In this document: piece by piece, positions 1,479 through 41,962 of the stretch | How positions within the stretch are numbered: the first letter of the stretch is position 1 | Layout: every line of letters starts with the position of its first letter | Source of the DNA: a virus | Reading direction: 5' to 3' (one strand) | IMG/VR virus record: IMGVR_UViG_3300047552_001097 | Coordinates: 62,001 to 126,000 of that record | Length of the DNA stretch: 64,000 bases | Made by a program: the position numbers and the translations under genes | The notes under the pieces: generated by a model | The model's database searches: none | The model's input: the letters and a program-made list of their open reading frames with translations, nothing else | Told to the model about the DNA's origin: nothing

Positions 1479-1570
1479 TATAGTTTTTAATATGTTTCTT
1501 ATTTATTATAACTACCTCTTATTACCTCTATTAATTTATAAAGGTAATATTAATACTAATATTTATTTAT

Positions 1571-3661: not shown

Positions 3662-3833
3662 TCTTACTCTTTATATAACAACTATTATTACTACTATATT
3701 TACAGATTCTATCCTTTACTTGCTCCTCTTTCATTTCTTTATTCATACTGGTTACATAAATATCCCTAATTCCATGAATAATCTTAATAGAACAAACAGG
3801 ACAAGATAAACAATCTCCAGGAAAAATAGACAT
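3645..3833 (-). CDS. Small Cys-rich hypothetical protein, 62 aa
   Basis: A 62-codon leftward frame fills most of the gap between two fibre genes and overlaps the 3' end of the first by 17 bases. It has five cysteines, including CLSCPVC at residues 8-14, and a C-terminal pair in CKYSSNNSC, an arrangement that could bind a metal ion. No family is recognised. The overlap and short length leave room for a chance ORF, but otherwise the gap would be unexplained. Confidence 0.45.
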   Translation of the reverse strand: MSIFPGDCLSCPVCSIKIIHGIRDIYVTSMNKEMKEEQVKDRICKYSSNNSCYIKSKIKDLS

Positions 3834-3866
3834 ATCTTTATATGTATGTTTTTATTTATGATAATA

Positions 3867-3888
3867 ATATCCTATTTGATTAGGATAT
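3867..3888. repeat. 8-bp inverted repeat upstream of fibre gene
   Basis: ATATCCTA (3867-3874) and TAGGATAT (3881-3888) form a perfect 8-bp inverted repeat around a 6-base loop. It lies 31 bases before the ATG of the large fibre gene at 3920 and just after the start of the leftward small ORF. It could be an operator, part of a promoter, or a hairpin in the leader. The right arm runs into GATATAAAGAA, which resembles sequence at two other divergent junctions (51949 and 55660). Confidence 0.4.
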
Positions 3889-3919
3889 AAAGAAATTCCA
3901 TAGTACATAAGAATAATAA

Positions 3920-16378: not shown

Positions 16379-17338
16379 ATGTTAACTAAGAGGCATTTAT
16401 TAGAGTTAAGAAGAAAGTTCTATTATACTTCTAGTGCTTTTGGAGGACCAGAAAATCTAATAGAGATATTGGAAAGAACTAATATAACGGGTATAGAAGT
16501 AGAAAGACAGGTTTATAGAATCTTATCTCATCCAGGAGAAGTAAAGGTTATAAGTCCCTGGGGCTTAGTATTAGATTTAATGAATAGGGATTATACAGGT
16601 ATAAGTAGAAGTGATTCTATATTAATAAAATACCCCTATGGAGTATATAACTCTAGAGGAGAAATCTTATATAAAGTAAAGAATCATAATGGTTACTTTG
16701 GTCTTAGTAGTCTAGATAAAACTCTGGTCCTTCAATCTAAGACAGGGGAGATGTTTTATCTTAGATATAGCTCTATAGAAGGGGAGATGGTAGTTCTACT
16801 TATAGTAAATAATCTGGCTCTGGAGAATGCTTATCCTAATGTTATATCTGATAGAGACTTTATAGAACCTCCTCCTCTTAGAGATGAACAGTCAGGATTT
16901 AATTTTGAGAGACCCGCTATAGAACCTTTTAAAAGATGGATTAGACTTAATACTTCTAGTCTTACTTCTAAATCTAATATTCTAGTTCATCAGTTAATAG
17001 GCTCCCCTACGGTTATACCTTCTATAGAACAACTTATAACCAATACTCAGGTAGTTACAGAGGAGATTTTAATAGATAAGGAAATAATCATTTACTTAAA
17101 GAAGTCTGGATGGTTATGTATGAGACAGGGTAATAACCTTTGTGTATTTGATAATTTAACAGGAGAAGGTGTAGATAGAGTTATAGAAGCTAAGAGAGGA
17201 ATTTATTACATAGCTGTAGGAGATGAGATTAAAACTAGTATTAATATAAGGCAGGAACTGGGTCTTGTTTCTAGAGTACCTGTTAATTTATCTACAGATG
17301 ATTCTATTAGTCTAGTAGGGGGTATAACTTATGCTTAA
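16379..17338 (+). CDS. Hypothetical structural protein, 319 aa
   Basis: This 319-residue protein ends with an 8-base overlap into the terminase gene. It begins with a charged helix, has a central mixed alpha/beta region, a Pro-rich acidic segment near 163-190, and a beta-rich C-terminus. I recognise no motif. Genes just before the large terminase often encode packaging or head-completion proteins, but a tail role is equally possible here. Confidence 0.6.
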   Translation: MLTKRHLLELRRKFYYTSSAFGGPENLIEILERTNITGIEVERQVYRILSHPGEVKVISPWGLVLDLMNRDYTGISRSDSILIKYPYGVYNSRGEILYKVKNHNGYFGLSSLDKTLVLQSKTGEMFYLRYSSIEGEMVVLLIVNNLALENAYPNVISDRDFIEPPPLRDEQSGFNFERPAIEPFKRWIRLNTSSLTSKSNILVHQLIGSPTVIPSIEQLITNTQVVTEEILIDKEIIIYLKKSGWLCMRQGNNLCVFDNLTGEGVDRVIEAKRGIYYIAVGDEIKTSINIRQELGLVSRVPVNLSTDDSISLVGGITYA

Positions 17339-19100
17339 AAGGAATAAAAATAAAGGTAATAATACAAGTAGTTTACTAGCTTCATTAATAAGTGAGGCTA
17401 GTACCTCATTAGAGGCAGATAGCAATCTTTCTATAGTAGAGTTTGCAGAGGATATTTTATTTAATAGTAGAGTAAACTTGTTTCCTCAACAAAGGGCGGT
17501 GTTAAAGATATATAACAATGAGGATATAAATGAAGATGAGGAGAATATATTAAACGAGTGGTTTAATGAAGGTAAGACTACATGGAGGAAGGGTAGGGTA
17601 TATAGTGATTTAGTTCTAGAAGCTGGTAGGGGTTCTGGTAAGAGTGTATTGGCAGCTATTATAGTTCTTTATGAGTTCTATAAGTTAATCTCATTAAAAG
17701 AACCTGCTTTATTCTATGGACTTATACCTAATGACCCTATATCCATATTTGTTATAGCTAAGAGTGGAGACCAAGTAAAAGAGACTTTATATGCAAAGAT
17801 AAAGGGTTATGCTGAACAGAGTGAATACTTTAAAGCTCTAGTAGATAATGAAAAGATAACTATACAAGAAGAGATGATTAGATGTAAGGATAAGAATATA
17901 GCTATATATGCTAAACACACTAACTCCTCCTCTCTAGTAGGTTATACCCTTAAGTGTTTAGTTCTAGATGAAGTGGCTAGATTTGATACTAGATTAGATG
18001 AGTATGGGGACCTTACTTCAGCGGCTGATGATATCTTTTATAACGTAGGTAAGGGTGTAAAGAGATTTGGAGCTAAAGGTAGAAGAGTAGCTATATCTAG
18101 TGCTTGGAGAGTTAATGACCCTATAGAAAGACTTCTTAAAACAGCAGATAAGGACCCAGAGACTATTGGATTTAAATTATGTACTTGGGATATTAATAAA
18201 AGACCAGAGTCTACTAGACAATCTCTTAACTCTGAATATCTAAAGGACCTTACTAGAGCTCAATTAGAGTATGAGGGCATAAGAATAAATAATAAGGGCT
18301 CTTCCTTTATATTAGAGGAACTTATAGATAAATGTACTAAAGGTTTATCTATGATAGATACAAAGGAGATAAATTTAGACATAGGGGATAGAGGTTATGT
18401 AGGACAAAAAGTATTAAGAATAGAAAAAGATAGAGAGACCCCTTGTTTTATTCATATAGATTTTAGTGTTAAGAGGGATGCTACTGGACTAGCTATAGCT
18501 TATCCTTATAAAGTAGATGATAGGTACTTAATTAATGTAGGAGGTTTAATTAAATGGACTCCATATACAGATGATAAAGGAAAGAAAAGGTTAATAAACT
18601 TTAATAATATAGAAGAAGTATTAATGATTCTAGCTCTTAATAGGAATATATTAAAGATGACATTTGACTCTTTTAGTAGTGCTCCAACTATTCAGAAGCT
18701 ATATACATTAGGTATAGACACTCAAGAGGTGTCTGTTTCTAGAAGTAGTCAAGCTGAGTATTTTACTTTATTTAGGGATTTATTAAACCAGGAATTAGTT
18801 ATTCTACCTAAAGATTCAATATACTTTTCATCTTTAAAGTCTGAGTTATTGGGCATTAAGATGAATGAAAATCTGTCTATAAGTCATGGACTACAAGGGA
18901 AAGATATATCAGATGCTGTAGTTAATAGTGTGTTTCAGTGCTATAACTATATAGTTAATTCTGGTTTAACCTTTAACAATACTAATAATATACTAGTTAA
19001 TCCTAGTCTTAACTCTTTTATAAATATAATTAATTCCCCTTATAATATAGGTTCTAGTGTTAATAGATACCGTTCTCTTAAATATAAACGTCTTATTTAA
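17331..19100 (+). CDS. terL: Terminase large subunit (packaging ATPase and nuclease)
   Basis: This 589-residue protein is the DNA-packaging motor. The N-terminal ATPase domain has a Walker A motif, GRGSGKS, at about residues 98-104 and a Walker B motif, CLVLDE, at about 209-214. The C-terminal RNase H-like nuclease domain shows the expected spaced acids: HIDFS near 376, TFDSF near 445 and KDISDAV near 526. Length and order are normal for the family and I see no intein or intron. The start overlaps the previous gene by 8 bases. A small subunit is not obvious next to it; the HTH protein at 33971 is a candidate. Confidence 0.95.
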   Translation: MLKRNKNKGNNTSSLLASLISEASTSLEADSNLSIVEFAEDILFNSRVNLFPQQRAVLKIYNNEDINEDEENILNEWFNEGKTTWRKGRVYSDLVLEAGRGSGKSVLAAIIVLYEFYKLISLKEPALFYGLIPNDPISIFVIAKSGDQVKETLYAKIKGYAEQSEYFKALVDNEKITIQEEMIRCKDKNIAIYAKHTNSSSLVGYTLKCLVLDEVARFDTRLDEYGDLTSAADDIFYNVGKGVKRFGAKGRRVAISSAWRVNDPIERLLKTADKDPETIGFKLCTWDINKRPESTRQSLNSEYLKDLTRAQLEYEGIRINNKGSSFILEELIDKCTKGLSMIDTKEINLDIGDRGYVGQKVLRIEKDRETPCFIHIDFSVKRDATGLAIAYPYKVDDRYLINVGGLIKWTPYTDDKGKKRLINFNNIEEVLMILALNRNILKMTFDSFSSAPTIQKLYTLGIDTQEVSVSRSSQAEYFTLFRDLLNQELVILPKDSIYFSSLKSELLGIKMNENLSISHGLQGKDISDAVVNSVFQCYNYIVNSGLTFNNTNNILVNPSLNSFINIINSPYNIGSSVNRYRSLKYKRLI

Positions 19101-19105
19101 CTTTA

Positions 19106-19795
19106 ATGTTTACTTGCCCAATCCCCAATTGTTACTCTTTAGCCTCTACTCCAGAGTGTATACCTGTAGTTTCTTATATAGATTCATGCTTTTCCTATGA
19201 AGACCCTCCCATATCCTTACCTATATTAGAACCTATTATGTTAGCTCCTAGGTTCTATATAGAGGTTTCTACTAAAGGAGAAGCCTCTTTCATTTATAAG
19301 ATTGATAAGTATGGGTTACTTAGTAATTATATTCAACTGCTTTTAAAACCTAATAAAGAGTATAAAGTTAAGTATTTTCAATGGAAAAAGGTTATATCTA
19401 CTTCTATTAATACAAGTTCATTAACTAAAATTTTAATAAAAGAGGAGATATGGAAGATTCCTTCTTCCTATTTATTGCTCCAAAGTCTTAGTTTAATTAG
19501 AAAAGATGATGATTCTAGTTCATGTATTGATGACTTTGATGTTATAGATAACCCTTTTATTCTTAATCCAACTATTAATATAGAACCTAAGTATAAAGGA
19601 AACCTTATTTATAAGACTCTTAATCTACCTATTTGTACTTATACTAATGAAAGAGTTGTATCTTCTATAGGAATTGGATGGTCTAATGCTCCTAAACCTG
19701 GAACTAAATATTCTATTTCATACTACCAACCACTAGATATTAAACAAGTAATAACTAATACTAATCATATAGATTTAACTAATATATACACCTAA
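19106..19795 (+). CDS. Hypothetical late protein, 229 aa
   Basis: This gene follows the terminase by 5 bases. The 229-residue product has a Cys- and Pro-rich N-terminal 50 residues (CPIPNC and further cysteines) and a beta-rich body. No signal peptide or catalytic motif is recognised. Together with the next two small genes it links the terminase to the giant gene, where head-tail connector or tail-completion proteins might be expected. That assignment is inference. Confidence 0.6.
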   Translation: MFTCPIPNCYSLASTPECIPVVSYIDSCFSYEDPPISLPILEPIMLAPRFYIEVSTKGEASFIYKIDKYGLLSNYIQLLLKPNKEYKVKYFQWKKVISTSINTSSLTKILIKEEIWKIPSSYLLLQSLSLIRKDDDSSSCIDDFDVIDNPFILNPTINIEPKYKGNLIYKTLNLPICTYTNERVVSSIGIGWSNAPKPGTKYSISYYQPLDIKQVITNTNHIDLTNIYT

Positions 19796-19796
19796 T

Positions 19797-20243
19797 ATGA
19801 CTAATCTAACCTTTACAAATAACCAATATGATATTAAAACCTATGCTGTTAGAACTATATTACCTAGTTTAAGTGTATTAGGTAAAGCTATAAAGATGGA
19901 TATAGAGGACTCTAGATTTGTTCTTAAAGGAGTGTTTACTACAGAGTTCATTCTTAATAAAGCTATAATAAGTTACTTTATTCCCTCTAAACCTAGTCCT
20001 TTCTATGCTAATAAACCTGTATGTCTAGTAGGTAATATTACTGGACCAGCCCCAGACTTATATATTCAAGCGGCTAACTCTTCTTTTATAGAAGGGACTA
20101 TAAGTCGTTTAGTATATATAAATGAGTGGTATCAGGGTGTAAATCCTTTTACTCAAGCTAGAAATCCATCTACTGCATTCGACTTTTTTAAACATCTATT
20201 AGCCTCTAACATAGAAGATGTAATTAATTACCCTAATCAATAA
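19797..20243 (+). CDS. Hypothetical late protein, 148 aa
   Basis: This 148-residue protein has no cysteine cluster and only one Cys (in PVCLVGN). Alternating hydrophobic residues suggest a beta-rich fold, as in small tail tube or connector proteins, but there is no identifiable motif. The ATG follows the upstream stop by one base and the operon spacing is tight, so it is almost surely expressed with its neighbours. Confidence 0.6.
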   Translation: MTNLTFTNNQYDIKTYAVRTILPSLSVLGKAIKMDIEDSRFVLKGVFTTEFILNKAIISYFIPSKPSPFYANKPVCLVGNITGPAPDLYIQAANSSFIEGTISRLVYINEWYQGVNPFTQARNPSTAFDFFKHLLASNIEDVINYPNQ

Positions 20244-20247
20244 CTAT

Positions 20248-20790
20248 ATGCCACACCCATGTACTAACTCTTGTTCTCCTAATAATAGATGTAAAGATAG
20301 ACCTCATGCTGGTCTATCTTTTAGACTACATAAGGATGATTCTATTTATACCCCTATCATAGAAGCTAGAACTCTAAGAATAAATCATTTATATGAATGG
20401 GAACTAGAATCTGGTTCTGCCTATGAGTCCTCATTCTTCTCATCTATAAAACTACAATATGACCAGATTCTATCTCCACCAGCTATGCAACCAGCATTTA
20501 ATATAGAACCTCTTATCATATCCTTCCACTCCTCTGACTTCTATAAAGTAGATTTATCTAACGCCTCTTTACCTGAATATATATCTGGTATATATGTTCT
20601 CACTAATGTGGTTATTAAAGAAATAGCTTTAGACCAGGACTGTTGTTGTAATAAGATGAAGGTAATAAAAGCTAGAGGAACGTTTGATTGTGTAACAAAT
20701 ATAGATACAGTACCAGATAAAGATTGTAGGGTTGAGGTATATCCAATACCAGTTCCAGTTAGTATTAAAGAATGTAATAGTTGTGATTAA
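20248..20790 (+). CDS. Cys-rich hypothetical late protein, 180 aa
   Basis: The 180-residue product has eleven cysteines. They cluster at the N-terminus (CTNSCSPNNRC, residues 5-15), at CCC near residues 133-135 and at the C-terminal CNSC. Such spacing could bind metal or form disulphides. The central part is beta-rich. It lies two bases before the giant gene, so it may be a partner of that protein in the virion. No family is recognised. Confidence 0.6.
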   Translation: MPHPCTNSCSPNNRCKDRPHAGLSFRLHKDDSIYTPIIEARTLRINHLYEWELESGSAYESSFFSSIKLQYDQILSPPAMQPAFNIEPLIISFHSSDFYKVDLSNASLPEYISGIYVLTNVVIKEIALDQDCCCNKMKVIKARGTFDCVTNIDTVPDKDCRVEVYPIPVPVSIKECNSCD

Positions 20791-20792
20791 TT

Positions 20793-23700
20793 ATGTCTTC
20801 TTCTTCTCTTGATAGGTCTTTAAATTCTAGATATAATGAGGAGTCTTCTTTATCTAAGGCATTAAGAGACCCTGTTAGTATAGCACTAGCTGGAACTGCC
20901 GCTATGGGTGGTGTATTAGGATCTATTAATTTCTTTAATAAAGTTAGAGATGATTATTATCATCCTTTTACTAGCTTCTTAAGAGATAGATTGAATGCTG
21001 ATATTACACTAGAGGTTCCTTATGACTATTACGATGAACCCTCAGCCTCCCGTTCAGAGAATACAACAAGAAAAACTAATAATCTAACAGAAATAGACCT
21101 TACTCCTACTCCTTCTTCCTCTGGTGATGTACCAGAGACTAATATCTTTATTAGGATAAATAATTGGATGACTGAGAGGAGACAGGAGCGTATGAATCAA
21201 AGATACGGTTCTAGTAATCCCGCACCTAATACTTCTAGCACCCCCTCTAGACCTACATCTAATACTAATACTCCAGCACCTAAACCCTCAATACCTCAGC
21301 CCATAACTCCTCCCCCAACTAATCCCTCTTATTCAATACCAGACCCTTGGCTTGATACTTCAACTAGTAATACTCCCCCTACTAGACCTTCTATTGTTCC
21401 TGCTTCTGTTAATTCCCCATCTACTCCAGTTAATAAAACTGTTCTTCCTTCTAATTCTGGAGTATCTATTAATCCTCCATCTATCTCTAGAGCAGCTCCT
21501 AGTGTACAGGTTAATAATGTTATCCCTAATAAAAGACCGTTAAATCTTAATTCATTACCTCCTTCTAATAAGGTAATGGGTAGTATAGGTATAGCCGCTC
21601 TTAGTTATATAGGGTTAGGGGTTCTATTAAGGGGGCCTGATTATTTATCTTATACCTCTAGTGGGTTTACTAGTTTCCTAGGAGGATTAACTACAAATAA
21701 TCCATATAAGGATGTAATACTACCAGGGGGTCATAGAGTTATTCCTAGTCTATCTAATAGAACTCTTATGAGTAACTCTAGGTCTGATACTTTTATAGAT
21801 GGTTATAAAGTAATGGATATATCCATACCCTCTGGAGCTGACTCTAAGAATAAATCTATAGAGACTAACTACCTTCCAGAGGTACTAGCAGCAACTATAG
21901 GTATATCCTTTGGGGTAGGGGTTGATGTAGGGATGTCTAAGTTATCTAAGAGTATGGCTAATAGGTCTAACACCTTTAGACATGTATTTGATAGAGATAG
22001 AACAGGGACTTTTAGTAAGAACTTCTCTCCTTTACTTTTAGGAGCTATAGCTGGAGCAGCTATATCAGATAACTCTATAGAAGATAAAGTACAGGGCACT
22101 TACCTAGGAGCTATGGGAGGAGGATTTATAGGGTTCCTAGGTATGAAAGAAGAGATAGGTCCCATGCTTAATAAAAGATTAGGTCTAGGTCTAATGGGTG
22201 GGGCTCTAGGTCTATTAATAGGTTCTAAGATAAGTGCTTCTAAAGAATCTAATAAAGTCACTTCTTATAGTATTAACAAAGGAGGAGAGTTAAGAGTTAC
22301 TTATGATAACTTACAGGAGCTAATAAAAGAAGATAAAGCTACATTACCCTATGACTTCTATAAACATCCAGAGGCTAATAAGTTAGTAGAGGCTTATCTA
22401 ATAAGTAATCAAAGGGGTTTTAGAGGTATAGAAGATACAGGTAATTATGCAGATAGACATTTAATTTATCAGGTAAATAAAGATAAGCATGGATATAATA
22501 CTCAAATAGGTAAGTTAAATATTAAGTTGGATATAACTGTTCCTAGTTATTCAAAAGAGGAGGGGTTTATTAGAGTTAGTCAAGAGGAGGTTAGAAAGAA
22601 GTATTCTATTAAGGATACTGATTCTATTGATAGAGCTAATGGTTTATTTAATGCTTATCAGATAGGTTTATTTATACCTTCTATGACCTTCTTTACTATA
22701 GGGACTATAGCAGAGGTTAAGAATAAACCCGGGGTTAAGAAGATAGTAGATTTTATTACTAACTATACAGATAAGGTTAAGTATCTATGGCCAGGAGAAA
22801 GAGCTATAGGTGAGGGTATACAGGAGATAGGGCAGGGGAGTACAGCCTTTCTTACTAGAGGCTATTCTAGAGGACTTAATAGAGGTATAAGGAAACTAGG
22901 GGAGGGCATTAAGTATAAAGTTATAGGTGAATCCCTTAGTTTAGCTAAGAAGACATTTATCTATGCTATACCTGTATCTATAATCTCCTCTATGTTTGGA
23001 AATATAGACAGAGATAATAATCAGAATATAGAGGTCTATAGTAAAGAGGTGTCTCACTATGAAGCTATAGAGACTATAATGCCAAAGGCTACAGGTAATA
23101 AGAATATAGACTCTAGAGTTAATCTTCAGACTTATATGGAGGAGGGTACAGCCTATAAGTTAGGGGATGTTATTATCTATGATTCGGGCACTATAGGCCA
23201 AGGATTAAGGAACTTTCTAGAGACAGCTCCAGATAAATCTGTTAAAGCTCTTTTATATAAGCTAGGACATGAACAGGGGTTACAAGAGGTAATAAGTAGA
23301 AAGGCTGCTATAGGGGGTATAGGTATAAGTGGTGGGGACAATATAGATACCTTTTCCTTTTGGGATGAGATAGGAAAAGGATTTCAAGGAGAGGGGTCAT
23401 GGGCACAGGTTTTTAGTTATCCTTTAAGAGCTAGTAAACATGAATCATTAGGAGCTGGTATAGCTTCAATAACCAGTCCTATAGTAGGAGGGTTGTATAA
23501 CAATCTAGCTACTAACCTAGGCTTTGACCCTATATATAACTATAAGTTTGATAAAGATGTTTACTCTCCATTAGCTCATTCTCTAAATACTCTTACTTAT
23601 GGTGGGTTGGGAGCAGCAATAGGTATAGGGATACATTCATATGTAGGGGGAGCAGGTAGGATACCTATGAGGGGTAAAGGGAGATTCGTAGGAGGGTTAA

Positions 23701-26700
23701 TAGGAGGGCTTATAGGTGTAGCTCTAGGAGCCACTCAACCTACATATATAGACTCTGGATTCTATGATTCCTTAAGTAAACAAACACAGTTATCCTTTGG
23801 GGTATTTAAAGAGAGTAGTGCCCATAAAGCTCTTACTAAAAAAGATTCTTCTATAGGAGACTTAGTATTAGGGGCTGGACTAACTGCTGGACTACCAGCA
23901 TTGGTAGGTGTGGCTCTACCAATGAAAGGGAGAGTTAATAGAGGTATATTCCTAGGGATAGTTGGTTATACCACTGGTATGATTATATCTACTATGACAG
24001 GTAATGGTGTATTACCATCTACCTTACCTATGTCTAGAAGGTTCTTAACCAATGAGTATGACCTTAGTAATCAAACCTTTAGTGTTTTACCAGGGGCTAG
24101 AAGGGGTAGTGGTAAACAACAGTTATCCCATATTCACTCTAAGACCTTATGGAGTAGGGAAGAGGTGTTTATATCTACAGGTAACTTAGATTCTGTATGG
24201 AAGAATATATATGGAGATGAGTCCCAGTTTAATATAGCTGTTAGGGTTAAAGGAGATACAGCTAAGAAGCTAATACCTCAATTAGATATTCTCCATGAGT
24301 TTATGAAGAAAGCTACTCCAGATTCTAACCTTTCTTCTATAGTAGACCAGATACCTGATTTGATACTAGGGGGGCAAGGTTCTAAATCTAATGAGAAGAT
24401 ATTAGAGTTTATTCAATCAGCTAAAGGGGATTTATGGATATCTGCTCCATATCTAGCAGGATTAAGTAGAGATGTAAGACCTTTAGTAGAAGCTATTAAA
24501 GCTCTAGAGGCTAAGGGACAAAATGTTCATCTTATAGCTCAGAACCCTAGAGGAGTGTCTGCTGGGGGCCAACCAGAGATGTCTATAGCTTTACAAAGAG
24601 AGTTATTAGCCTCTGGAATAGATGTATACACCACTCCATATACTAATACCACCCTAACCCATGCTAAGTTATTAGCTGATGATGTAAAGACCTTTATAAC
24701 TAGCCATAACCTATTCTCTGGTAACTCTATGAATAAGGTAGTAGAGGTAGGTATAGTTCTAGAGGGGGAGGAATATGCTAAGGCTACTAAACAGGCAGCC
24801 CTTAGATTTATGATAAAGAATAACTTCTCTAATATTAAAGATAGTCCTCAATTCTCTCCAGAGGTATCTAAAGGATTTAGAGGGGTAGAAAGAGTAAAGG
24901 CCCTAGATATAAACCCTCAGTTTGCTGGTCTATTTGACCACCATTCAGGCTATCTCCTTCTTAACTCTCAAATGGGAGCATCCTTTTTCTACTCTAGAGC
25001 TCTATATAATAATCTCCAACGTCAAGCAGGTTTCTATCATAGGATTATAGATGAAGAGTTTGGTCCAGCTACTAGCTTATTTAAAATAGCTTATCTAGCT
25101 CACATAAATAAGAACACTAATACTCCTTTAAGTACGGACTTATCGTATATCCCCTACTTTGTTAGTCAATATGATAAAGAGTTACAGACTCAGGGGGTAG
25201 GTGGGGTATTTAATGAGTTTGTATCCATGAGGTTAGGGATGGGTAGGATGTATAAAGATGAGTATGGGTTTATAGGTTCTATAGCTGGTTCTATAGGGGC
25301 TATTCTAGATAGAACTTACCTATTCTTCCAGGGAGGTAATATAGTGGGAGTTCATAGTAACTATGATGATGTAGATAACAAGGATATGAAGTATAAGAAT
25401 AGAATGTTTCAAGAGGGGACCTTTGAAGCATTATTTACTTATCTAGCTGTTACTGCTGAATCTGCTGTAGCTTCTATAGCCTTATATATCTCATTAGGAG
25501 AACCTATTAATTTATTAATAGGAGAGGGTTTTAAGACATCTACAGAGAACTTTATTAGAGATGCTATTAAAGAAGAAGATTTCCTATCCCCTTCATCTAG
25601 ACTTAAAAGAGCCTCTAACCTAGGGTTATATGACTCTCAGAGTTCTATACAAGCTAGACTATCTTTATTCTCTTCTATTACATCAGGGGAGGAGTATTTC
25701 TCTGTATCTAACTTTAAGTTAACTCCTTATCATGTAAGCAACTTCTTCCTTAGAGAAAGGTCCTACCATCTACAAAGAGAGGTATTAGAACCCTTCTTAC
25801 TAGAGAAGATAAACCCCTATGAGAGATTTGAAAGGTCTCAACAAGGTTTTAGAGCGGTTATTAATAAGTTTATAGAAGAGATAAGAACCCCTCCAGAGAT
25901 TAGATTAGTAGCTTCAGAATCTAATCTAGAAACTATATCTAAACTAGTAAAACAACAGAAGGAGATAAGTGAACACTTAAGTTCTATAGGGGTTAATAAA
26001 AAGCTAGTAGATGTAATTATTTCAGAGGCTATAGGTTATAAGGAAGTAAGGAGTCAATTAGCCTCTGCTCTAAATCTAGATCCTAATGCCTCCTTAGATG
26101 AAATAGTTAACACTCTTAAAGGATTTAACTCCTCCTCTTATTTAGATGGTGTACTTCCATCTATACAAACTAGAAATAAACTAGGTACTTATACTTATAC
26201 AGAAGAGGGTAAGTTAATATCAGGAGTTAATTTAGAGATAGGTAATGTAGGTGTAGAGAGAGCTACTAGGATAGCAAGAGCTGTACAGGATATATTAGAT
26301 GAGATACCTCTTAATCCTATACATTGGAAGGTCTTTAATAGTAATAGTGTGGCTTCTTTATTAGGAGTAAAGGAAGGGGGTTATCAGAGAGTGGTTAATA
26401 GAACTAACTTTACTGTTATATCTAAGGTAGCTACTATAGGGGATATCCTATCCTTTACAGATTTAACTCAAACTATGTCAGAGATTATGTTTGGTAAAGG
26501 AGGGATATCTGCCTTCATAGCCGCTAATGAAATATATAGTACAGAAATAGATAAGAGTATAGCTAGACATTCAGTAGATAGGATTCATACTATATGGAAT
26601 ATGACAGCAGGAGCTGCTTATAGAGCTTCCTCTAGAGCATGGTCTAGATATAAGTTAGTTATGGGATTACCCTTTCAGACTGGATTAATGAAGGCTAGTG

Positions 26701-29700
26701 AGTCATTAAAGGCTATGGAGTTTAATCTATTTAATAAGATAGGGGATGATGGATTAAGAGGTATAACCTGGGGAGATGATGCAGCTATTATCTCTAAGAG
26801 AATAGAGGATTTAACTAAAGAGGCTAAAGCTATATGGGAACAGTCTATACAGTCTGGTGAGTATGAACGTATATCTAAATATGTATCAAGTCTAGACCAA
26901 AGAGGGTTTATAGCTGAGTATATAGCAGAACAATTACAACCTCATGTGGATCCATTAGCCAGAAGAATTAATTATATAGATGAATCAGTAGTATCTGCAT
27001 TACATCAAGTAGATGAGGTTCATCAGGCTCTATCTAATAACCCTAGAATGGCAGGTACTTTCCTTATGGAGATGCAAGAGCATTTAAGGAAAGAAACTAT
27101 GGATATGTTTGTTACTGCTACTATGAGTGGTTCTAATCTACAGAAACGTCTTATTAAACTTAGACCAGGGGACCCCTATGGTCTAGCCTCTAAGAAGAAG
27201 ATGGCTTCTGTAGCTATGTCTTTATTAGGTATAGGAACTATATTCCTAGAACAACTCTTTACTAATACTCAGGGAGTAAGTATATTTACTCAGGTAGCCA
27301 CAGCTCTTACATTTAGTAGATATAGTGATAAAGAAAGTGGTGTATCTACTACATTTACTAATAGTGCTTTCCTACCTGGTTCTGGTGTATCTAGATATAT
27401 AACTAATATAGGGGTTAATATAGGGGTCCTTGGTCTATCTCATATAATAGGTTCTTCTATATTAAGGGCTCAGGCTCTAGATTACACCTTTGATAATGAC
27501 TTGTTATATAGACATATAGATGAGACTAGGGGAGCTTCTATTAACATAAGACTCAAACATCTAGATGCTAATGGAGATGAGGTAATAGAGCTTGTATCTG
27601 ATTTAATAGATGATTGGAAGACAGAGGGTGTAGAGTCTGGAGCTGACCTTATTAAGAGATTAAAGGGGTTAGTTAATGAGGGTTACTCCCTTCAATACGC
27701 GGTTACTAAAGGAGCTTCCACTAAGTACCTATCAGCTTTTGTAGAAGGTAAATATCTAAAGACTAGGGCTATTAGATTTGTAGGTAATACATGGTTTAAC
27801 ACTGCTGTAACATATGCTGTATTAACAATGGCTATAAAAGGGGTTAAAGGGGGTATAGCTTCTACTCTTAATACTCTTAGAGATACTACTGGAACCATAG
27901 ACCCTATTCTATTTGGAGGTATAGGTATGGGTATTGGAGCTATAAAAGGGGGATTTAGAGGAGGTCTAGCTGGATTAGCTGTAGGGGTATTTAGCTCTTT
28001 TATAATGAATAGTCTAGGGGTTAAACTTCTTAATATTGGAGGTAAAGGAGTTAAAGTAGATAATTTAGAGACTGGTATTTTATCAGAACTATCTAACTTT
28101 AGACATTATGTTATGGCTAATCTAGGAGATGCTAGTAGAGCAGAACTAATGGCAGCTCTATGGTCTAGAAATATGGAGTCTGCCTATTCTATTCTCTATA
28201 AAGAGCCTTCTGGTACAACCTCTAATGTATTAGCTAAACAAATAACCTTTCCAGTATTCCAATTCTTCTTTACTAGTAAGGTAATAGGAGAACAAATAAA
28301 TAATGAAGGGATAATAACCAATCCTGGGCAGATATATTATAGTACAGGGATTCAGGGTCCTCCTATAAGTGGTATATCCTTCTCTTTTGGTCTTCCTTTT
28401 AAGATAGTAAAGGGAAAGGGGGTGTTTGGTACAGGTATTGCCTATAATGAAGAGGCTAATGTTATGGATTATATTCATAGTGTTAGCTACACCTCTTTAT
28501 ATCTAGGAGCTAATAGTCTAGCTCTTGGGACTTTATATAAAGTAAGTAACTCATTAAAGAGTAAATCAGCTATTAAGGAAGTAGGAGTTCTAGAAATGTT
28601 AGCTAAGATGTCTAAGGGTACTGCTCAATTAGTAGATGATGTTTTAATGACTCCCGTAGAGTTTGGATATAGAGTAGTAACCTCTCTAGCTACAGTGGAT
28701 ATTCGTAATGCTTTCTCTGTAGCTTATAAGGAACAAGATAAGGCTGCTCAATTAGGTACTTTAAGAAAACCTGTAGGGGGTATAGGAGCTCTAGCATTAA
28801 AGACTTTACTAGGGTTATATATAGGGGGTCAGATAGGAAGTTTATATCAAGGTATAGTCTCTAAGGATACTATTGAGTATCAAGATAAAGTGTCTTCTGC
28901 TATAGATGTAGGGGCTCTTATAGGTGGGGGTCTAGCAGTTGGTCATCATTTTATATACCCTAAGATATATCCGCATATACAGGGTAAGTTATTTAAATAC
29001 AACTCTTTACCTAGACTCCCTAGATATATACCAGCTCTAGCTATAGGAATAGGAGTAGGCACTCTTATGGCTAATAGTAGCTATGGATTAAGTAGTGGTA
29101 TGGATTTCCATGAGGATGAACTTAGTTTCACTAAATATGCAATTACTGCTGTAGGTTATGGAACAGTATTAGGAACTGTAGCCTATAAGGTGGGTAATAT
29201 AGGATTAACAATGGCAGATACTCTCCAGAAGTATGTAGATTTAGATAGTAGGTTAGAGATGGCTACTGTTAAGAGTACAACTGGTAGTGGGTTAAATAGG
29301 ATGGTTAATAAGGCTAAGAAGTTCTACTACTCCTTATTTATAGATAATGCCCAGAAGGAAGCTCAGATGGTAGTAGATACTATTAAACATAACCAGCAGG
29401 AGATAGATGTTAGATATAACCAAGTAAAGGGGGTAAAGGGAGAAACAGTAGCAGATACTTTACCAGATGGTTATGCTCGTAAAGCTGTAGAACTTATAGA
29501 TAATAATACAGATGTTAAGTTTCTTATTCACTCTAGTGAGAACAAAGAGATTCTTAATAATATTAATAAAGCTAAGGGTTCGTTCTTAGAGTCTAGATTT
29601 CATAAAAGGATATTTCCTCATAGAGTTAAGAGAACAGTAGGTGGGATGATAGCTCTTGGAATAGGATTATCTATATTAATGGGAGGTAATGAGGGTCAGT

Positions 29701-32700
29701 TCTATGATTATATAGAGGGAGCTTCTCCTGATCAATCTAAGGTTAGAGCTTCAATGGGTAAGATGCAGGCTGTATTCAGGTCTTCTCTAGCAGATATATT
29801 TAGGTTAATAACAGGTAGAGATAAGAAGCTAATGAGTCCTAACCAACTTAATAATGTCTTTAGGTCAGCATCTGAGTATACAGGTATAGACTATAAAGTT
29901 CAATATGAGAAGTTATTAAAGACTAGACCAGACCTTATTAATTCTATTAATAGTAGTATTAATGGTTTCTCTCAATTAATGGTATTTGATAGCCCTAATG
30001 CTTTTATATCTATAGGGGTTATAGGAGGAGCATTTAGAAGAAGTGAGTATGGTAACATCTTAACTCCTTATATTCAGATTCAAGGTACAGGGGCTGATAT
30101 AAGTACAGCTTCCTACCAAATGGTCTCTAGGTTCTATTTCAACTCTGTTATAGGTGGAGCTAATAATCTCTACTTTGATATTATGAATGCTGTAAAGATA
30201 AGTAATCAGGCATTAAAAGCTGGTCAACCTATGTCTAAATTTATATCTAGACAGATAGCTATTAACCTTCTTAGTGTTACAGCTAAACAACAACCTCTAC
30301 AGAAGAGGAGGAAGGTCTCTATGTTAAATGAAGAGACTATATCAGCCCTATCTTCTGATAGCCTTCTAGGAGCCATATTAAAACATAGGGTTAATATTAC
30401 TAAGAACCTTAGCTATCAACCACCCCTCTCTTTAGCTACTAGACTTTTATTAAATAATGTAGAGACTAATCCTCAAATAGCTAATCCTGTACTTCTATAT
30501 TTACTTTCTCCTGATACTTTAAAGGAACTAGGTTTAAATATTGACTCTACTGTATTTGAGTTGTTATCTAAGGACCCCTTCTTCTTATTATCTAAGTCCT
30601 TTGTTATTAATGGTATTAACTCTTTTGCTCTTAATAGAGATGCTGTAGGTAATTACCTTAAAGGTATATTCTTCCCAGCTCAGATACCTATGGACCATCA
30701 AGATATATGGAAGGGTGGGGATTCCTCCTATATCTCCTCCTATTATCAACATGAAGGAGACATAGGCTTTGCTATTATGCAGGCTAGTAGAACCAATCCT
30801 ATCCTTCAATTATTAGGTAATTTAACTAGAGGAGTTCCTAGTTCTATTAAGGCCCTAGGAGCTGGAGTCATATTTGCTTCTTTATTAGGGGTTATAACCT
30901 TTAATCTAGGGAGAAAGGGTCTAGCTATAGAAGATAGAGCTTTATATAAGGAGATAAATGAATACTTTCTATCTGGATGGTTTAAACAAAGTAGAGAGGC
31001 AGAGGGGTTTGCATGGACCTTTAGAACCTCTTATCCCTTAGTAGGTAAGAAGGCTAGTCTAAAGGTTAGTGGAGAGAACTATTCTATTATCTATAAGGGG
31101 GCATACCAGTTTGTTATTAATAATAGGATAGGTAATAGTGTAGGTATAAGTAGACTATTAGCTAAAGTACAGGAGGACCTGTATGGAATAATTACTGAAT
31201 CCTTTGGGGCTGAATATGATGATAAAGGGGTGATGACTAAGAAAGGTACTAATCTAGCAGACTGGTTTTTATCTAGTAATAAACAAAAGGAGTTAATCCA
31301 GGCCATTGAGTCTATAGATAAACCTACTAAGGCTGATTCTTTAACCATCACTCATTTAGATGAGAATGGTAACTCTACGGATAAAGTCTTTACAGTAGAA
31401 ACAGATAAACCTATACTAGATAATCTTAATAACCTTAAACACTTTGAGGATTCATTAGGAGAATTAGATGAGGCTCAGTCCGCTCTATTAATTGAGTTTA
31501 GAAGTAAACAGACATCATTATATGAGAAATCACTTAGACCCTCTACTTTAGTAAAGAATATAACAGATGTTTTTATGAAGGATATGGAAGATTTAGTAGA
31601 TAGATACATAGACACCCTTATTGATAATAGGATAAGAGTTAATGAGAACTATCTATTAAATTTACCTCAATTAGATAATGAAACTAAATCTATAAGTGAA
31701 ATATTTGATTCATATCAAGACCCTAATAGTAGATATAAGGGGATAGTTAAATATGTAGATTCCTTTGGAGATGTAACTAGATGGACAGAAGTATCCTTTA
31801 TAACTATACTTAACCCTAATATGGGACTACAGGATATGATGGAAATTAGTTATCTATTAAAGAATAAGGATACAAGACCCGAGGGTTTAACTAGATTAGT
31901 AGCTGGAATGAGTGCAGAACAAAAAGCTCTTTATACTGTAAATATAGATGGGAAGGCTACTGTAGATATCCATAAGGCCCTTAAAGAACAAGCTAGGGTG
32001 GCCATTAGTGATGCTGTGGAGCAGTATATATCCCAGTTCCCAGGGTCAACAGAGGAAGCAAAGAAGGCTCTTCTAAAGCATTTCCAAGGTACTAATCCTA
32101 GACTAGATAATATGACTATAGAAGTTCTAGGGGGTTTAATTGGATTAAAGAAGGATAAAGATGCTTCCTTCTTTTCTTTACTTAGACATCATTGGGCTGG
32201 ATTAGGAACTACACCTACTGCTGATGTAACTAGAGGTCTCTCTACAACTATGAGACGTATGGTTAATTTTATTAGAGGTAAATCTTCTATACCAGATGCT
32301 GATGAGACAGGGGTAGTATCTACTACTAAGACAGACCCTTATCTAATCGGTAAGTCTAATAATAGTCCTATACCTATGGGGATAATGACTGAATCAGGAG
32401 ATGAGGTTATTAATAGAGTTCTAGTAGCTCAAGATATGGCTAGAGCTGATGTAGGATTTGGTAATAAGATAGGTAAGGGCTTTGGTATATTACTAGAGTT
32501 CTTAGGCTTTGGAGTAGATGTAGTAGAGGGTGTATCTACTATGGCCGCCTTCTCTAGATTAGGTCATGCTTATACATCTGAGACATATACAGAAGCTCAG
32601 ATTATGAATGAGGCTATGTACGCTGGTACTACCCTAGTTAACTCTGCTTTATCTATACTTATTCTAGGAGCTGCTTCTTATGCAGCTAATGTATTTGCAG

Positions 32701-33965
32701 CAGGGACTTTAGCTGCTTTTATAGCTCCATTGGTTATTATAGGTGTAGCTTCATTAGCAGGCTTTGCCTTTAATAAATGGGCTCCAGACTCTATTAAGAG
32801 TAAAGTTCATGGAGGGTTTAATAAACTATATGAAGGGGCAGCTAAGATGCTTAAAGGTGGTGGAGATTTCTTTAGAGATAAGTTTGGTAAAAGAGCTGCA
32901 TCAGCATTCTCTCATGCTGTAGGTGGCATAATGATGGGGGGAATGATAGTAGCATCTCTAGGTACTATCTCATCTATCAGTGCTTTAGTAGGGTTAGGTA
33001 CAGCTATATCTATGCCTGCTCTAGGCAGCTTCTTATTAGCAGGGGCAGCTATAGGTGGTGTAACAGCAGCAGCTATAGGGTTTCTTAATCCTGGTTTATT
33101 AGATAAAACTCTAGGTCCTATGGTAGAGTCCTTAAGTAATGTAAGGATAGGTAATGTTCCTTTAGGACGTTTATTTGTTATAAGACCAGACCAGTGGTTA
33201 TATGAGTTTATGAAGACAGGAGACCCTATAACTGGAGTAGATAAATATGGAGCTCCTATTAAAGCTATAACTGCTAATGATTTAATTAAACAAGATTATG
33301 CTGCTCAATTACTAGCTGCTGATGATTATACCGGCTCTAGTGCTGCTTCTTTATTTATCCACCAAGGGATGTATGGAACTTATAACACTAATAACTCAAT
33401 AGATAAATATGGAAAGGTAAGTATAATAAGGCCCCCTTCTATACTTTCTCCCTTTATTCAAAAGGAGATTAAATATAGAGGTCAACTCTTTAATCAATCT
33501 ATTGTAGGTAGATATGTATGGAATACTCTACTAGCTAATAGTTCTAACCAAAGGCATGTAAGAAAGGTTATGGAATCTCCTATACTTAAACCCTCTACTA
33601 ATGCTCTTAAACAAATAAGTATTGATGCAGCTAGACATGCACAAGTAAAACAGTTCCAATCTAAGTCTGTGACCTTATTATCTAAGTCCTTTACTATCAG
33701 AAATATACCTATACTAGCCTCTATAATTGATAAGTTTAATGATGCTAAAGCTAAGTTACAGGCTAAGATAGCTTACGCTAAATTACCCATCAGGGCTATA
33801 TTTAGATTAGATAATATAACAAGTTCTGATAGAGAATATAAAAAGGATTTAAGATTAGCTCCAATGGAAGTAGCAGCTATTGTAGATGGTAATATTATAA
33901 GGAAGGTTACAACCTCTGAATCAGAGATTAAAGAGGAAGTTTTTAATAATATTAATTACAGTTAA
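20793..33965 (+). CDS. Giant virion-type protein (4390 aa) with phospholipase-D-like motif
   Basis: One 13.2-kb frame encodes 4390 residues. It starts with a hydrophobic segment (about 27-50), then a Pro/Ser/Thr/Asn-rich disordered linker (about 110-250). Many Gly/Ala-rich hydrophobic stretches follow along the length; the longest runs are near residues 3950-4000 and 4030-4100. A phospholipase-D-type segment lies near 1210-1320: a strand WISAPY, then HAKLLADD and TSHN, which fit the HxK(x)4D and downstream Asn pattern with slightly altered spacing. Only one such motif is obvious, so dimerisation would be needed for activity. Two roles fit: a tape-measure protein threaded through the tail, or an ejected internal protein that crosses membranes. 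I saw no HExxH or DxDGD motif. The gene itself is certain and its function is not. Confidence 0.8.
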   Translation: MSSSSLDRSLNSRYNEESSLSKALRDPVSIALAGTAAMGGVLGSINFFNKVRDDYYHPFTSFLRDRLNADITLEVPYDYYDEPSASRSENTTRKTNNLTEIDLTPTPSSSGDVPETNIFIRINNWMTERRQERMNQRYGSSNPAPNTSSTPSRPTSNTNTPAPKPSIPQPITPPPTNPSYSIPDPWLDTSTSNTPPTRPSIVPASVNSPSTPVNKTVLPSNSGVSINPPSISRAAPSVQVNNVIPNKRPLNLNSLPPSNKVMGSIGIAALSYIGLGVLLRGPDYLSYTSSGFTSFLGGLTTNNPYKDVILPGGHRVIPSLSNRTLMSNSRSDTFIDGYKVMDISIPSGADSKNKSIETNYLPEVLAATIGISFGVGVDVGMSKLSKSMANRSNTFRHVFDRDRTGTFSKNFSPLLLGAIAGAAISDNSIEDKVQGTYLGAMGGGFIGFLGMKEEIGPMLNKRLGLGLMGGALGLLIGSKISASKESNKVTSYSINKGGELRVTYDNLQELIKEDKATLPYDFYKHPEANKLVEAYLISNQRGFRGIEDTGNYADRHLIYQVNKDKHGYNTQIGKLNIKLDITVPSYSKEEGFIRVSQEEVRKKYSIKDTDSIDRANGLFNAYQIGLFIPSMTFFTIGTIAEVKNKPGVKKIVDFITNYTDKVKYLWPGERAIGEGIQEIGQGSTAFLTRGYSRGLNRGIRKLGEGIKYKVIGESLSLAKKTFIYAIPVSIISSMFGNIDRDNNQNIEVYSKEVSHYEAIETIMPKATGNKNIDSRVNLQTYMEEGTAYKLGDVIIYDSGTIGQGLRNFLETAPDKSVKALLYKLGHEQGLQEVISRKAAIGGIGISGGDNIDTFSFWDEIGKGFQGEGSWAQVFSYPLRASKHESLGAGIASITSPIVGGLYNNLATNLGFDPIYNYKFDKDVYSPLAHSLNTLTYGGLGAAIGIGIHSYVGGAGRIPMRGKGRFVGGLIGGLIGVALGATQPTYIDSGFYDSLSKQTQLSFGVFKESSAHKALTKKDSSIGDLVLGAGLTAGLPALVGVALPMKGRVNRGIFLGIVGYTTGMIISTMTGNGVLPSTLPMSRRFLTNEYDLSNQTFSVLPGARRGSGKQQLSHIHSKTLWSREEVFISTGNLDSVWKNIYGDESQFNIAVRVKGDTAKKLIPQLDILHEFMKKATPDSNLSSIVDQIPDLILGGQGSKSNEKILEFIQSAKGDLWISAPYLAGLSRDVRPLVEAIKALEAKGQNVHLIAQNPRGVSAGGQPEMSIALQRELLASGIDVYTTPYTNTTLTHAKLLADDVKTFITSHNLFSGNSMNKVVEVGIVLEGEEYAKATKQAALRFMIKNNFSNIKDSPQFSPEVSKGFRGVERVKALDINPQFAGLFDHHSGYLLLNSQMGASFFYSRALYNNLQRQAGFYHRIIDEEFGPATSLFKIAYLAHINKNTNTPLSTDLSYIPYFVSQYDKELQTQGVGGVFNEFVSMRLGMGRMYKDEYGFIGSIAGSIGAILDRTYLFFQGGNIVGVHSNYDDVDNKDMKYKNRMFQEGTFEALFTYLAVTAESAVASIALYISLGEPINLLIGEGFKTSTENFIRDAIKEEDFLSPSSRLKRASNLGLYDSQSSIQARLSLFSSITSGEEYFSVSNFKLTPYHVSNFFLRERSYHLQREVLEPFLLEKINPYERFERSQQGFRAVINKFIEEIRTPPEIRLVASESNLETISKLVKQQKEISEHLSSIGVNKKLVDVIISEAIGYKEVRSQLASALNLDPNASLDEIVNTLKGFNSSSYLDGVLPSIQTRNKLGTYTYTEEGKLISGVNLEIGNVGVERATRIARAVQDILDEIPLNPIHWKVFNSNSVASLLGVKEGGYQRVVNRTNFTVISKVATIGDILSFTDLTQTMSEIMFGKGGISAFIAANEIYSTEIDKSIARHSVDRIHTIWNMTAGAAYRASSRAWSRYKLVMGLPFQTGLMKASESLKAMEFNLFNKIGDDGLRGITWGDDAAIISKRIEDLTKEAKAIWEQSIQSGEYERISKYVSSLDQRGFIAEYIAEQLQPHVDPLARRINYIDESVVSALHQVDEVHQALSNNPRMAGTFLMEMQEHLRKETMDMFVTATMSGSNLQKRLIKLRPGDPYGLASKKKMASVAMSLLGIGTIFLEQLFTNTQGVSIFTQVATALTFSRYSDKESGVSTTFTNSAFLPGSGVSRYITNIGVNIGVLGLSHIIGSSILRAQALDYTFDNDLLYRHIDETRGASINIRLKHLDANGDEVIELVSDLIDDWKTEGVESGADLIKRLKGLVNEGYSLQYAVTKGASTKYLSAFVEGKYLKTRAIRFVGNTWFNTAVTYAVLTMAIKGVKGGIASTLNTLRDTTGTIDPILFGGIGMGIGAIKGGFRGGLAGLAVGVFSSFIMNSLGVKLLNIGGKGVKVDNLETGILSELSNFRHYVMANLGDASRAELMAALWSRNMESAYSILYKEPSGTTSNVLAKQITFPVFQFFFTSKVIGEQINNEGIITNPGQIYYSTGIQGPPISGISFSFGLPFKIVKGKGVFGTGIAYNEEANVMDYIHSVSYTSLYLGANSLALGTLYKVSNSLKSKSAIKEVGVLEMLAKMSKGTAQLVDDVLMTPVEFGYRVVTSLATVDIRNAFSVAYKEQDKAAQLGTLRKPVGGIGALALKTLLGLYIGGQIGSLYQGIVSKDTIEYQDKVSSAIDVGALIGGGLAVGHHFIYPKIYPHIQGKLFKYNSLPRLPRYIPALAIGIGVGTLMANSSYGLSSGMDFHEDELSFTKYAITAVGYGTVLGTVAYKVGNIGLTMADTLQKYVDLDSRLEMATVKSTTGSGLNRMVNKAKKFYYSLFIDNAQKEAQMVVDTIKHNQQEIDVRYNQVKGVKGETVADTLPDGYARKAVELIDNNTDVKFLIHSSENKEILNNINKAKGSFLESRFHKRIFPHRVKRTVGGMIALGIGLSILMGGNEGQFYDYIEGASPDQSKVRASMGKMQAVFRSSLADIFRLITGRDKKLMSPNQLNNVFRSASEYTGIDYKVQYEKLLKTRPDLINSINSSINGFSQLMVFDSPNAFISIGVIGGAFRRSEYGNILTPYIQIQGTGADISTASYQMVSRFYFNSVIGGANNLYFDIMNAVKISNQALKAGQPMSKFISRQIAINLLSVTAKQQPLQKRRKVSMLNEETISALSSDSLLGAILKHRVNITKNLSYQPPLSLATRLLLNNVETNPQIANPVLLYLLSPDTLKELGLNIDSTVFELLSKDPFFLLSKSFVINGINSFALNRDAVGNYLKGIFFPAQIPMDHQDIWKGGDSSYISSYYQHEGDIGFAIMQASRTNPILQLLGNLTRGVPSSIKALGAGVIFASLLGVITFNLGRKGLAIEDRALYKEINEYFLSGWFKQSREAEGFAWTFRTSYPLVGKKASLKVSGENYSIIYKGAYQFVINNRIGNSVGISRLLAKVQEDLYGIITESFGAEYDDKGVMTKKGTNLADWFLSSNKQKELIQAIESIDKPTKADSLTITHLDENGNSTDKVFTVETDKPILDNLNNLKHFEDSLGELDEAQSALLIEFRSKQTSLYEKSLRPSTLVKNITDVFMKDMEDLVDRYIDTLIDNRIRVNENYLLNLPQLDNETKSISEIFDSYQDPNSRYKGIVKYVDSFGDVTRWTEVSFITILNPNMGLQDMMEISYLLKNKDTRPEGLTRLVAGMSAEQKALYTVNIDGKATVDIHKALKEQARVAISDAVEQYISQFPGSTEEAKKALLKHFQGTNPRLDNMTIEVLGGLIGLKKDKDASFFSLLRHHWAGLGTTPTADVTRGLSTTMRRMVNFIRGKSSIPDADETGVVSTTKTDPYLIGKSNNSPIPMGIMTESGDEVINRVLVAQDMARADVGFGNKIGKGFGILLEFLGFGVDVVEGVSTMAAFSRLGHAYTSETYTEAQIMNEAMYAGTTLVNSALSILILGAASYAANVFAAGTLAAFIAPLVIIGVASLAGFAFNKWAPDSIKSKVHGGFNKLYEGAAKMLKGGGDFFRDKFGKRAASAFSHAVGGIMMGGMIVASLGTISSISALVGLGTAISMPALGSFLLAGAAIGGVTAAAIGFLNPGLLDKTLGPMVESLSNVRIGNVPLGRLFVIRPDQWLYEFMKTGDPITGVDKYGAPIKAITANDLIKQDYAAQLLAADDYTGSSAASLFIHQGMYGTYNTNNSIDKYGKVSIIRPPSILSPFIQKEIKYRGQLFNQSIVGRYVWNTLLANSSNQRHVRKVMESPILKPSTNALKQISIDAARHAQVKQFQSKSVTLLSKSFTIRNIPILASIIDKFNDAKAKLQAKIAYAKLPIRAIFRLDNITSSDREYKKDLRLAPMEVAAIVDGNIIRKVTTSESEIKEEVFNNINYS

Positions 33966-40040: not shown

Positions 40041-40663
40041 AAGGTTATTTGAATACTAAACTCCCCTTTTTCATTAATGAAACTTATAGTTCCCTTTATT
40101 ATTTCTACTATAAAACTAACTATATATAGCCCTAGACCTACACCTTCTGTATTTAAATCTTCCTTTTTAAAGGGTTTAGATAGATAAATATTAAAGGATT
40201 TATCTATCTTTTTATTATTACTTTTGTAATCTATATAGAGCTTATCCTTTACTTTATAAGTATTAATACTTATAACAGTAACTTGTTCCTCTTTAAATTT
40301 AAAGCTGTTATCTATTAGTTGTTCTATTAGAAGTTGAAATAATAGATAATCACTTTTAATAATAAAAGAATTAATATTTAATTTATATAGTTGATTATAT
40401 TTATAAAGAGTTTCATTAACAATATCTTTAATATTAAACTCTTTATAAATAACTATGTGTTCTTTTATTTTATTAACAACTTCTAGTTGAGTTATATATC
40501 TTTTTATTCTATTGTTATTAAACTCTATCTTATGAATAAAAGCATCTCTTTCTTCACTGATTATACTTTTATTTCTTAATATATATAAATTATTATTTAT
40601 ATTTCTATATATTTGATTAAGAGTATGAAGAGATAGAAAAGTAAAGTCTGTTGGTTCTATCAT
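40037..40663 (-). CDS. Histidine-kinase-like protein (DHp plus degenerate GHKL ATPase)
   Basis: The 208-residue protein looks like the kinase core of a two-component sensor without a sensor or membrane domain. An N-terminal helical hairpin with a candidate phospho-acceptor His (H13, in SLHTLNQ) spans about 5-70. The ATPase-like domain has an N-box, QLIDNSFKF (N119), and a G2-type loop, GVGLGLYIV (about 174-182). The usual DxGxG G1 box is not found: the matching stretch near 145-153 is YKSNNKKI. It may therefore bind ATP weakly or act as a histidine phosphotransferase. The adjacent receiver gene supports a signalling pair. The start is ATG, 60 bases after the helicase gene, with a hairpin in between. 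Confidence 0.8.
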   Translation of the reverse strand: MIEPTDFTFLSLHTLNQIYRNINNNLYILRNKSIISEERDAFIHKIEFNNNRIKRYITQLEVVNKIKEHIVIYKEFNIKDIVNETLYKYNQLYKLNINSFIIKSDYLLFQLLIEQLIDNSFKFKEEQVTVISINTYKVKDKLYIDYKSNNKKIDKSFNIYLSKPFKKEDLNTEGVGLGLYIVSFIVEIIKGTISFINEKGEFSIQITL

Positions 40664-40680
40664 TGATTTAAATAATAAAT

Positions 40681-40706
40681 TATAGGTAGAGTAGTCTCTA
40701 CCTATA
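40681..40706 (-). terminator. Hairpin between helicase and kinase genes
   Basis: A perfect 11-bp stem pairs 40681-40691 with 40696-40706 around a 4-base loop. In the direction of transcription it lies between the stop of the helicase gene and the ATG of the kinase-like gene, and is followed by an AT-rich stretch. It could end or attenuate transcription, so the signalling cassette may be expressed separately from the genes upstream. Confidence 0.6.
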
Positions 40707-40723
40707 ACATTATAGATATAATA

Positions 40724-41890: not shown

Positions 41891-41919
41891 ATTTAACCTA
41901 TATAAGTTGTAAATAATAG

Positions 41920-41949
41920 TATCCTCCTTCCATTACTAGAAGGAGGATA
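41920..41949 (-). terminator. Hairpin terminator after the SSB-like gene
   Basis: A perfect 11-bp stem pairs 41920-41930 with 41939-41949 around an 8-base loop, with a GC-containing core (TCCTCC against GGAGGA). It lies 13 bases past the stop of the SSB-like gene in the leftward direction and is followed by an AT-rich stretch before the helicase ATG. It fits a Rho-independent terminator, though the T-tract is weak. Confidence 0.7.
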
Positions 41950-41962
41950 TACCTATTAAATG

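Follow-up and report, generated by a model that had tools for sequence, protein, structure and literature searches.

Polyvalent proteins are large, multi-domain proteins whose genes adjoin virion genes and which are interpreted as entering the host along with the phage DNA (Iyer et al. 2017, PMC5512222). Among their domains HExxH peptidases occur most often, and the phage versions of these adjoin virion genes; of the terms for PLD, SNase and GDSL that were looked for, none occurs in the main text of that study (PMC5512222). Phage N4 ejects an RNA polymerase of about 3500 residues, of which there are about four copies per virion (PMC12633501).

Here we analyzed a stretch of 64,000 nucleotides (the window), which corresponds to bases 62001-126000 of a virus record of 171,917 bases. 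Protein matches indicated that the record is distantly related to the Microcystis phages Ma-LMM01 and MaMV and to the Microcoleus phage My-WqHQDG; the sheath, baseplate, peptidoglycan enzymes, terminase, primase and helicase are about 20-57% identical to those of Ma-LMM01, MaMV and My-WqHQDG, with the gene order largely kept, and Pfam also detects the sheath domain. When a phage collection was searched at the nucleotide level, nothing matched. Because the relatives of the record are viruses of bloom-forming cyanobacteria, its host is probably a cyanobacterium. A sub-threshold match to NblA (phycobilisome degradation; genome 171030-171131, minus strand) fits such a host weakly.

The giant gene and its surroundings

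The uninterrupted frame of 4390 codons described in an earlier note on this DNA was verified. It begins with ATG, has no internal stop, and its 13,173 bases (genome 82793-95965) make up 20.6% of the window. Homologous frames of 2882-5484 aa in seven other lineages show that the frame is not fortuitous. It is not the largest in the genome, as a frame of 5372 aa outside the window exceeds it. The coordinates of the features are summarized in Table 1.

Table 1. Features of the giant gene and its upstream neighbours (window positions; residues are those of the giant protein)
Feature	Position	Strand	Remarks
Terminase large subunit	17331..19100	+	phrog_2, E 1e-15; 48% identity to Ma-LMM01 gp118
Conserved gene of 229 aa, lying between terminase and giant	19106..19795	+	
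Two small genes of 148 and 180 aa; no convincing match to a family	19797..20790	+	
Giant protein, 4390 aa	20793..33965	+	ATG start; homologues in other lineages
Pro/Ser/Thr-rich linker (140-260), then hydrophobic segment (261-279)	21210..21629	+	
First glycine-zipper region (~408-480)	22014..22232	+	GxxxGxxxG at 435, 439, 469
Second glycine-zipper/hydrophobic region (~935-1042)	23595..23918	+	GxxxGxxxG at 963, 967, 971; hydrophobic 1024-1042
PLD module (1101-1345), directly before body	24093..24827	+	PF13091
HKD-like motif 1, H1115-S-K1117 ... T-G-N1131	24135..24185	+	H, K, T, N invariant in four PLD lineages
HKD-like motif 2, H1290-A-K1292 ... T-S-H-N1306	24660..24710	+	H, K, S, H, N invariant in four PLD lineages
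Conserved body (~1380-4390)	24930..33965	+	Common to eight lineages
Body block 1, GR[LM]YKDExGxxxSxxGxxGxxLD	24975..25337	+	
Body block 2, VxAxQ...QxF...SxGxQ	28215..28487	+	
Body block 3, YxQxQxxxxDxSTAxY	29976..30437	+	
C-terminal hydrophobic segments (3952-3991, 4042-4083)	32646..33041	+	

The giant gene is the last of a run of genes on the same strand, the terminase gene among them, and its synteny with the terminase is kept in every lineage where this could be checked. Relatives of the 229-aa gene occupy the same site in lineages L014, L030, L031 and L053, in My-WqHQDG and in Ma-LMM01 (gp119). In Ma-LMM01 only five genes were classed as late, and the terminase was classed as a middle transcript (PMC5780444), so that the giant gene is at most a putative late gene.

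Some other proteins of the phage were also noted. A 770-aa protein (window 61169-63481) with a C-terminal endosialidase chaperone domain (PF13884) is probably a tail spike or fibre. Two neighbours of 696 aa (window 1571-3661) and 1177 aa (window 3920-7453) both correspond to portions of a single large My-WqHQDG protein (L001:571-4929) and possibly represent a duplication; the 1177-aa protein has head-decoration and tail-fibre profile matches. An 842-aa tail protein (L006:44-2572, genome ~40044-42572) matches a baseplate family at its N-terminus, and its downstream part resembles, by eye, a peptidoglycan carboxypeptidase and then a beta-lactamase-like domain; its counterpart in My-WqHQDG is annotated as beta-lactamase family.

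Among the compositional traits of the giant listed in the earlier note, the Pro/Ser/Thr linker was confirmed (54% P+S+T and 24% P in residues 140-260), and residues 1561-1749 of the L049 homologue align with residues 140-307 in this region (E 2e-5). The hydrophobic N-terminus corresponds to a stretch at residues 28-47, which is present but weak. The description of many Gly/Ala-rich hydrophobic helices was right as to the glycine zippers, which are enriched (13 GxxxGxxxG, against a mean of 3.4 and a maximum of 11 in 200 shuffles), but not as to number: 11 windows of 19 residues exceed the hydropathy threshold, and the shuffled sequences gave a mean of 6.9 and a maximum of 15, so that the count is not beyond composition. 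Many transmembrane helices were accordingly dropped as evidence. The C-terminal hydrophobic segments have counterparts in Ma-LMM01 (2489-2532 and 2585-2603) and L049 (5062-5188). The giant matches phrog_29513 alone in PHROGs, a family of unknown function, and PLDc_2 is the sole domain that Pfam recognizes in it. AlphaFold2 models of residues 740-1745 and 2330-3260 from 10-row alignments had mean pLDDT values of 38.5 and 39.8, and were not taken as evidence.

The conserved body and its exchangeable N-terminal modules

Eight lineages of the giant were gathered by scanning IMG/VR with the conserved body blocks and from the phage collection. Their proteins have 4390 (window), 5484 (L049), 4151 (My-WqHQDG), 3564 (L030/L046), 3209 (L031, identical to L032 in the overlap), 2961 (L014), 2898 (Fukuivirus) and 2882 (L053) aa, and the number of lineages is bounded by the pattern scans, which required conserved blocks. 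A body of about 2400-3150 residues is common to all eight, with the highest conservation in the blocks that contain GR[LM]YKDExG, VxAxQ...QxF and YxQxQxxxxDxSTAxY. Searches of viral contigs with the full giant, or with its PLD stretches alone, found nothing, but the body blocks did find relatives. Two pattern scans of cellular genomes, which reach near relatives only, gave no relatives and hence nothing to suggest that the giant came from a host or prophage. The giant belongs to an uncharacterised family.

A PLD with two HxK motifs precedes the body in the window protein, My-WqHQDG, L049 and L053, and a staphylococcal-type nuclease (SNase; PF00565) precedes it in L014 (E 9e-14), L031 (E 4e-12) and L030 (E 2e-6), all three of which keep the family's R, D, P-E and G-R positions invariant. 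Before the body of the L049 protein there are a GDSL hydrolase (E 5e-23), two HExxH motifs and the PLD; this homologue (L049:2993-19444), the largest member found, has Pro-rich linkers too. Proteins of the Ma-LMM01 type (Fukuivirus) have no recognisable PLD, SNase or other enzyme before the body, so that the family can do without the module. A degenerate PLD in Ma-LMM01 gp120, suggested by motif-like stretches, was rejected: the PLD profile gave E 0.8 in the near-identical L018, and Ma-LMM01 itself was absent from its matches.

L031 and My-WqHQDG are collinear, with 71-78% DNA identity through the terminase gene and up to about codon 24 of the giant gene, where the homology stops; it returns where the body begins. 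Between these points lie 722 bases with the SNase in L031 and 3593 bases with the PLD and hydrophobic segments in My-WqHQDG; at the DNA level this difference is a clean in-frame module exchange. That relatives exchange the enzyme had escaped the earlier note. In a tree of the body, the details of which are unsure because of the long branches of L030 and L053, carriers of PLD and SNase are mixed, and well-supported branches force three changes for PLD and two for SNase. The window phage has a stand-alone SNase gene as well (genome 2642-2926, minus strand), indicating that fused and free SNases both exist in this phage group.

The PLD-like motif that the earlier note had pointed out was recovered by Pfam, with PF13091 (PLDc_2) matching residues 1203-1333 at E 9.7e-10 and 38.8 bits (cut-off 27), and the PLD scored 45.3 bits in the genome-wide search. 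Its two HxK motifs are H1115/K1117 and H1290/K1292; the second has D at 1296/1297, and the first has no acidic residue at the usual distance, but E1123/E1124 instead. The module is 49% identical to that of My-WqHQDG and is the best-conserved part of the giant in this pair. An alignment of the four PLDs (window, My-WqHQDG, L049 and L053) left 24 invariant columns only, which include H15, K17, T29, N31, H190, K192 and S204-H205-N206. The invariance of both HxK motifs in four diverged lineages, together with the conservation of the PLD in the My-WqHQDG pair, argues for a working enzyme.

Predicted delivery, activity and alternatives

On balance we favour, with some confidence, the reading that the virion contains the giant and ejects it into the cyanobacterial host together with the phage DNA, with the body as carrier and the exchangeable N-terminal nuclease acting there. 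Ejection is the best reading because the gene lies at the packaging genes, because its N-terminus is enzymatic and exchangeable, and because polyvalent and ejected proteins provide a parallel. We infer from its length, hydrophobic segments and glycine zippers that the body of ~3000 residues would mediate packing and then entry into, or transfer across, the envelope. The N-terminal enzyme would act in the new host at or soon after entry, and its possible targets are DNA or RNA of the host, of rivals or of plasmids.

The module itself is a two-motif PLD of the Nuc/DrmC kind, most likely a nuclease. Its best NCBIfam match is DISARM DrmC (8e-11, far below the family cut-off, so that it is not a member), and PDB sequence searches with it gave chance matches only. 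Membership in the PLD superfamily, which includes phospholipases, leaves the substrate unsettled, and it is conceivable, if rather unlikely, that the giant is ejected or virion-associated but that its PLD cleaves or alters phospholipids of the membrane at entry, possibly in the manner of the lipase-like GDSL hydrolase upstream of the PLD in L049. Cardiolipin synthase is a weak second match in NCBIfam, glycine-zipper segments lie upstream of the module, and Foldseek ranked PLDs first, the best matches being phospholipases D, but these were not significant (E 0.12) and were obtained with a low-confidence model (mean pLDDT 38.5). A nuclease is favoured because the SNase, itself a nuclease, takes the place of the PLD in relatives, and among PDB structures the L049 PLD comes nearest to the Nuc endonuclease (1byr, E 1.2e-6), then to MitoPLD (mitochondrial cardiolipin hydrolase/Zucchini).

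The position of the gene beside the packaging genes would also suit an internal capsid or assembly protein, or one that stays in the producing cell, with an enzyme that comes into action late, on targets such as the host chromosome or competing DNA. We regard this as improbable, as polyvalent proteins in such settings are read as virion-packed (PMC5512222), and exchangeable modules would be typical of delivered effectors.

The giant is probably not a tape measure, and the comparison with tape measures made in the earlier note was weakened. Tape measures scale with tail length at about 0.15 nm per residue. For the 2899-aa homologue of MaMV-DH01, which served as a proxy for the window phage, this predicts a tail of ~435 nm, against a measured length of 230-260 nm (PMC9927357). 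In addition, the giant gene follows the terminase, far from the sheath and tube genes (the presumed tube gene, adjoining the sheath, is at genome 37016-37831, against 82793-95965 for the giant), the N-terminal region differs by ~950 residues between the close relatives L031 and My-WqHQDG, and a PHROGs search of the giant matched no tape-measure family. That the giant measures an unusually long contractile tail and carries the PLD as a passenger domain is therefore highly doubtful; this alternative retains some weight from the great length and hydrophobic segments of the protein, from tape-measure-related effectors with variable domains in contractile injection systems (PMC13277306), and because no certain tape measure was identified elsewhere in the genome, where the 842-aa protein matches weakly (E 1e-4).

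If the giant is virion-packed, as we favour, it would define a new family of effectors delivered by phages, in which a conserved carrier of ~3000 residues bears a naturally exchangeable N-terminal enzyme, and could help explain how these phages handle host or rival nucleic acids in cyanobacteria rich in defence genes. The cultured members, Ma-LMM01 and the MaMV phages, make virion content, ejection and module activity directly testable.

The earlier note had also likened the giant to the RNA-polymerase-bearing proteins of crAss-like phages. For the 4390-aa giant this likeness fails, as the DxDxD/DxDGD motif of two-barrel (crAss-like) polymerases was looked for and is absent, and the single-subunit polymerase type of N4 is unmatched in Pfam; it fits the phage through a second giant of 5372 aa (L089; genome 6355-22473, minus strand), outside the window, which contains DFDGD. 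We take DFDGD to be the signature of two-barrel RNA polymerases. It is kept in Ma-LMM01 gp080 (3562 aa), in My-WqHQDG and in the relatives from the L014 and L049 phages; searches with the second giant gave no polymerase family or PDB match. Near its N-terminus this protein has a canonical H-P-K-L...G-S-F-N motif, and the Pfam PLD model is below the cut-off (E 0.03; 0.0009 and 0.0007 in relatives). Thus, the window phage probably has two giants with a PLD-like module close to the N-terminus, and the second is a candidate RNA-polymerase-like delivered protein of contractile-tailed phages. If the PLD and polymerase assignments hold, the second giant overtakes the statement that neither tape measures nor crAss-like polymerase proteins have a known PLD domain. 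We tentatively suggest, as a possibility, that these contractile-tailed cyanophages have two giant delivered proteins, one polymerase-like and one a carrier, with PLD-like front modules in several lineages, and that the carrier swaps nucleases, a lipase-like hydrolase and HExxH, as a counterpart of polymorphic-toxin delivery into the newly infected cell.

Comparison with known systems

Ma-LMM01 gp120 and its Fukuivirus homologues (phrog_29513) resemble the window giant in the body and in their site after the terminase and a small gene, but Ma-LMM01 gp120 has 2898 aa and is without recognisable PLD or SNase. The hypothetical protein WOL31340.1 of My-WqHQDG shares the architecture, the hydrophobic segments, the two-motif PLD and the synteny, although identity is ~28-50% and the N-terminal ~100 residues are not alignable by BLAST. 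Like polyvalent proteins, the window giant is very large and lies beside packaging genes, and combined effector domains are clear in L049. It differs from them in that it has one recognised domain, the PLD, where polyvalent proteins by definition combine two or more disparate activities (as the homologue L049 does), and in that its body is a separate family. The giant polymerases of N4 and crAss-like phages likewise have several thousand residues, and that of N4 is ejected, whereas in the window phage the polymerase motif sits on the second giant instead. Sle1-type tape-measure-related effectors (PMC13277306) differ in being cellular and related to tape measures, and Sle1 has its functional domain at the C-terminus; in architecture they are comparable to the window giant in that a conserved carrier is combined with an interchangeable functional domain.
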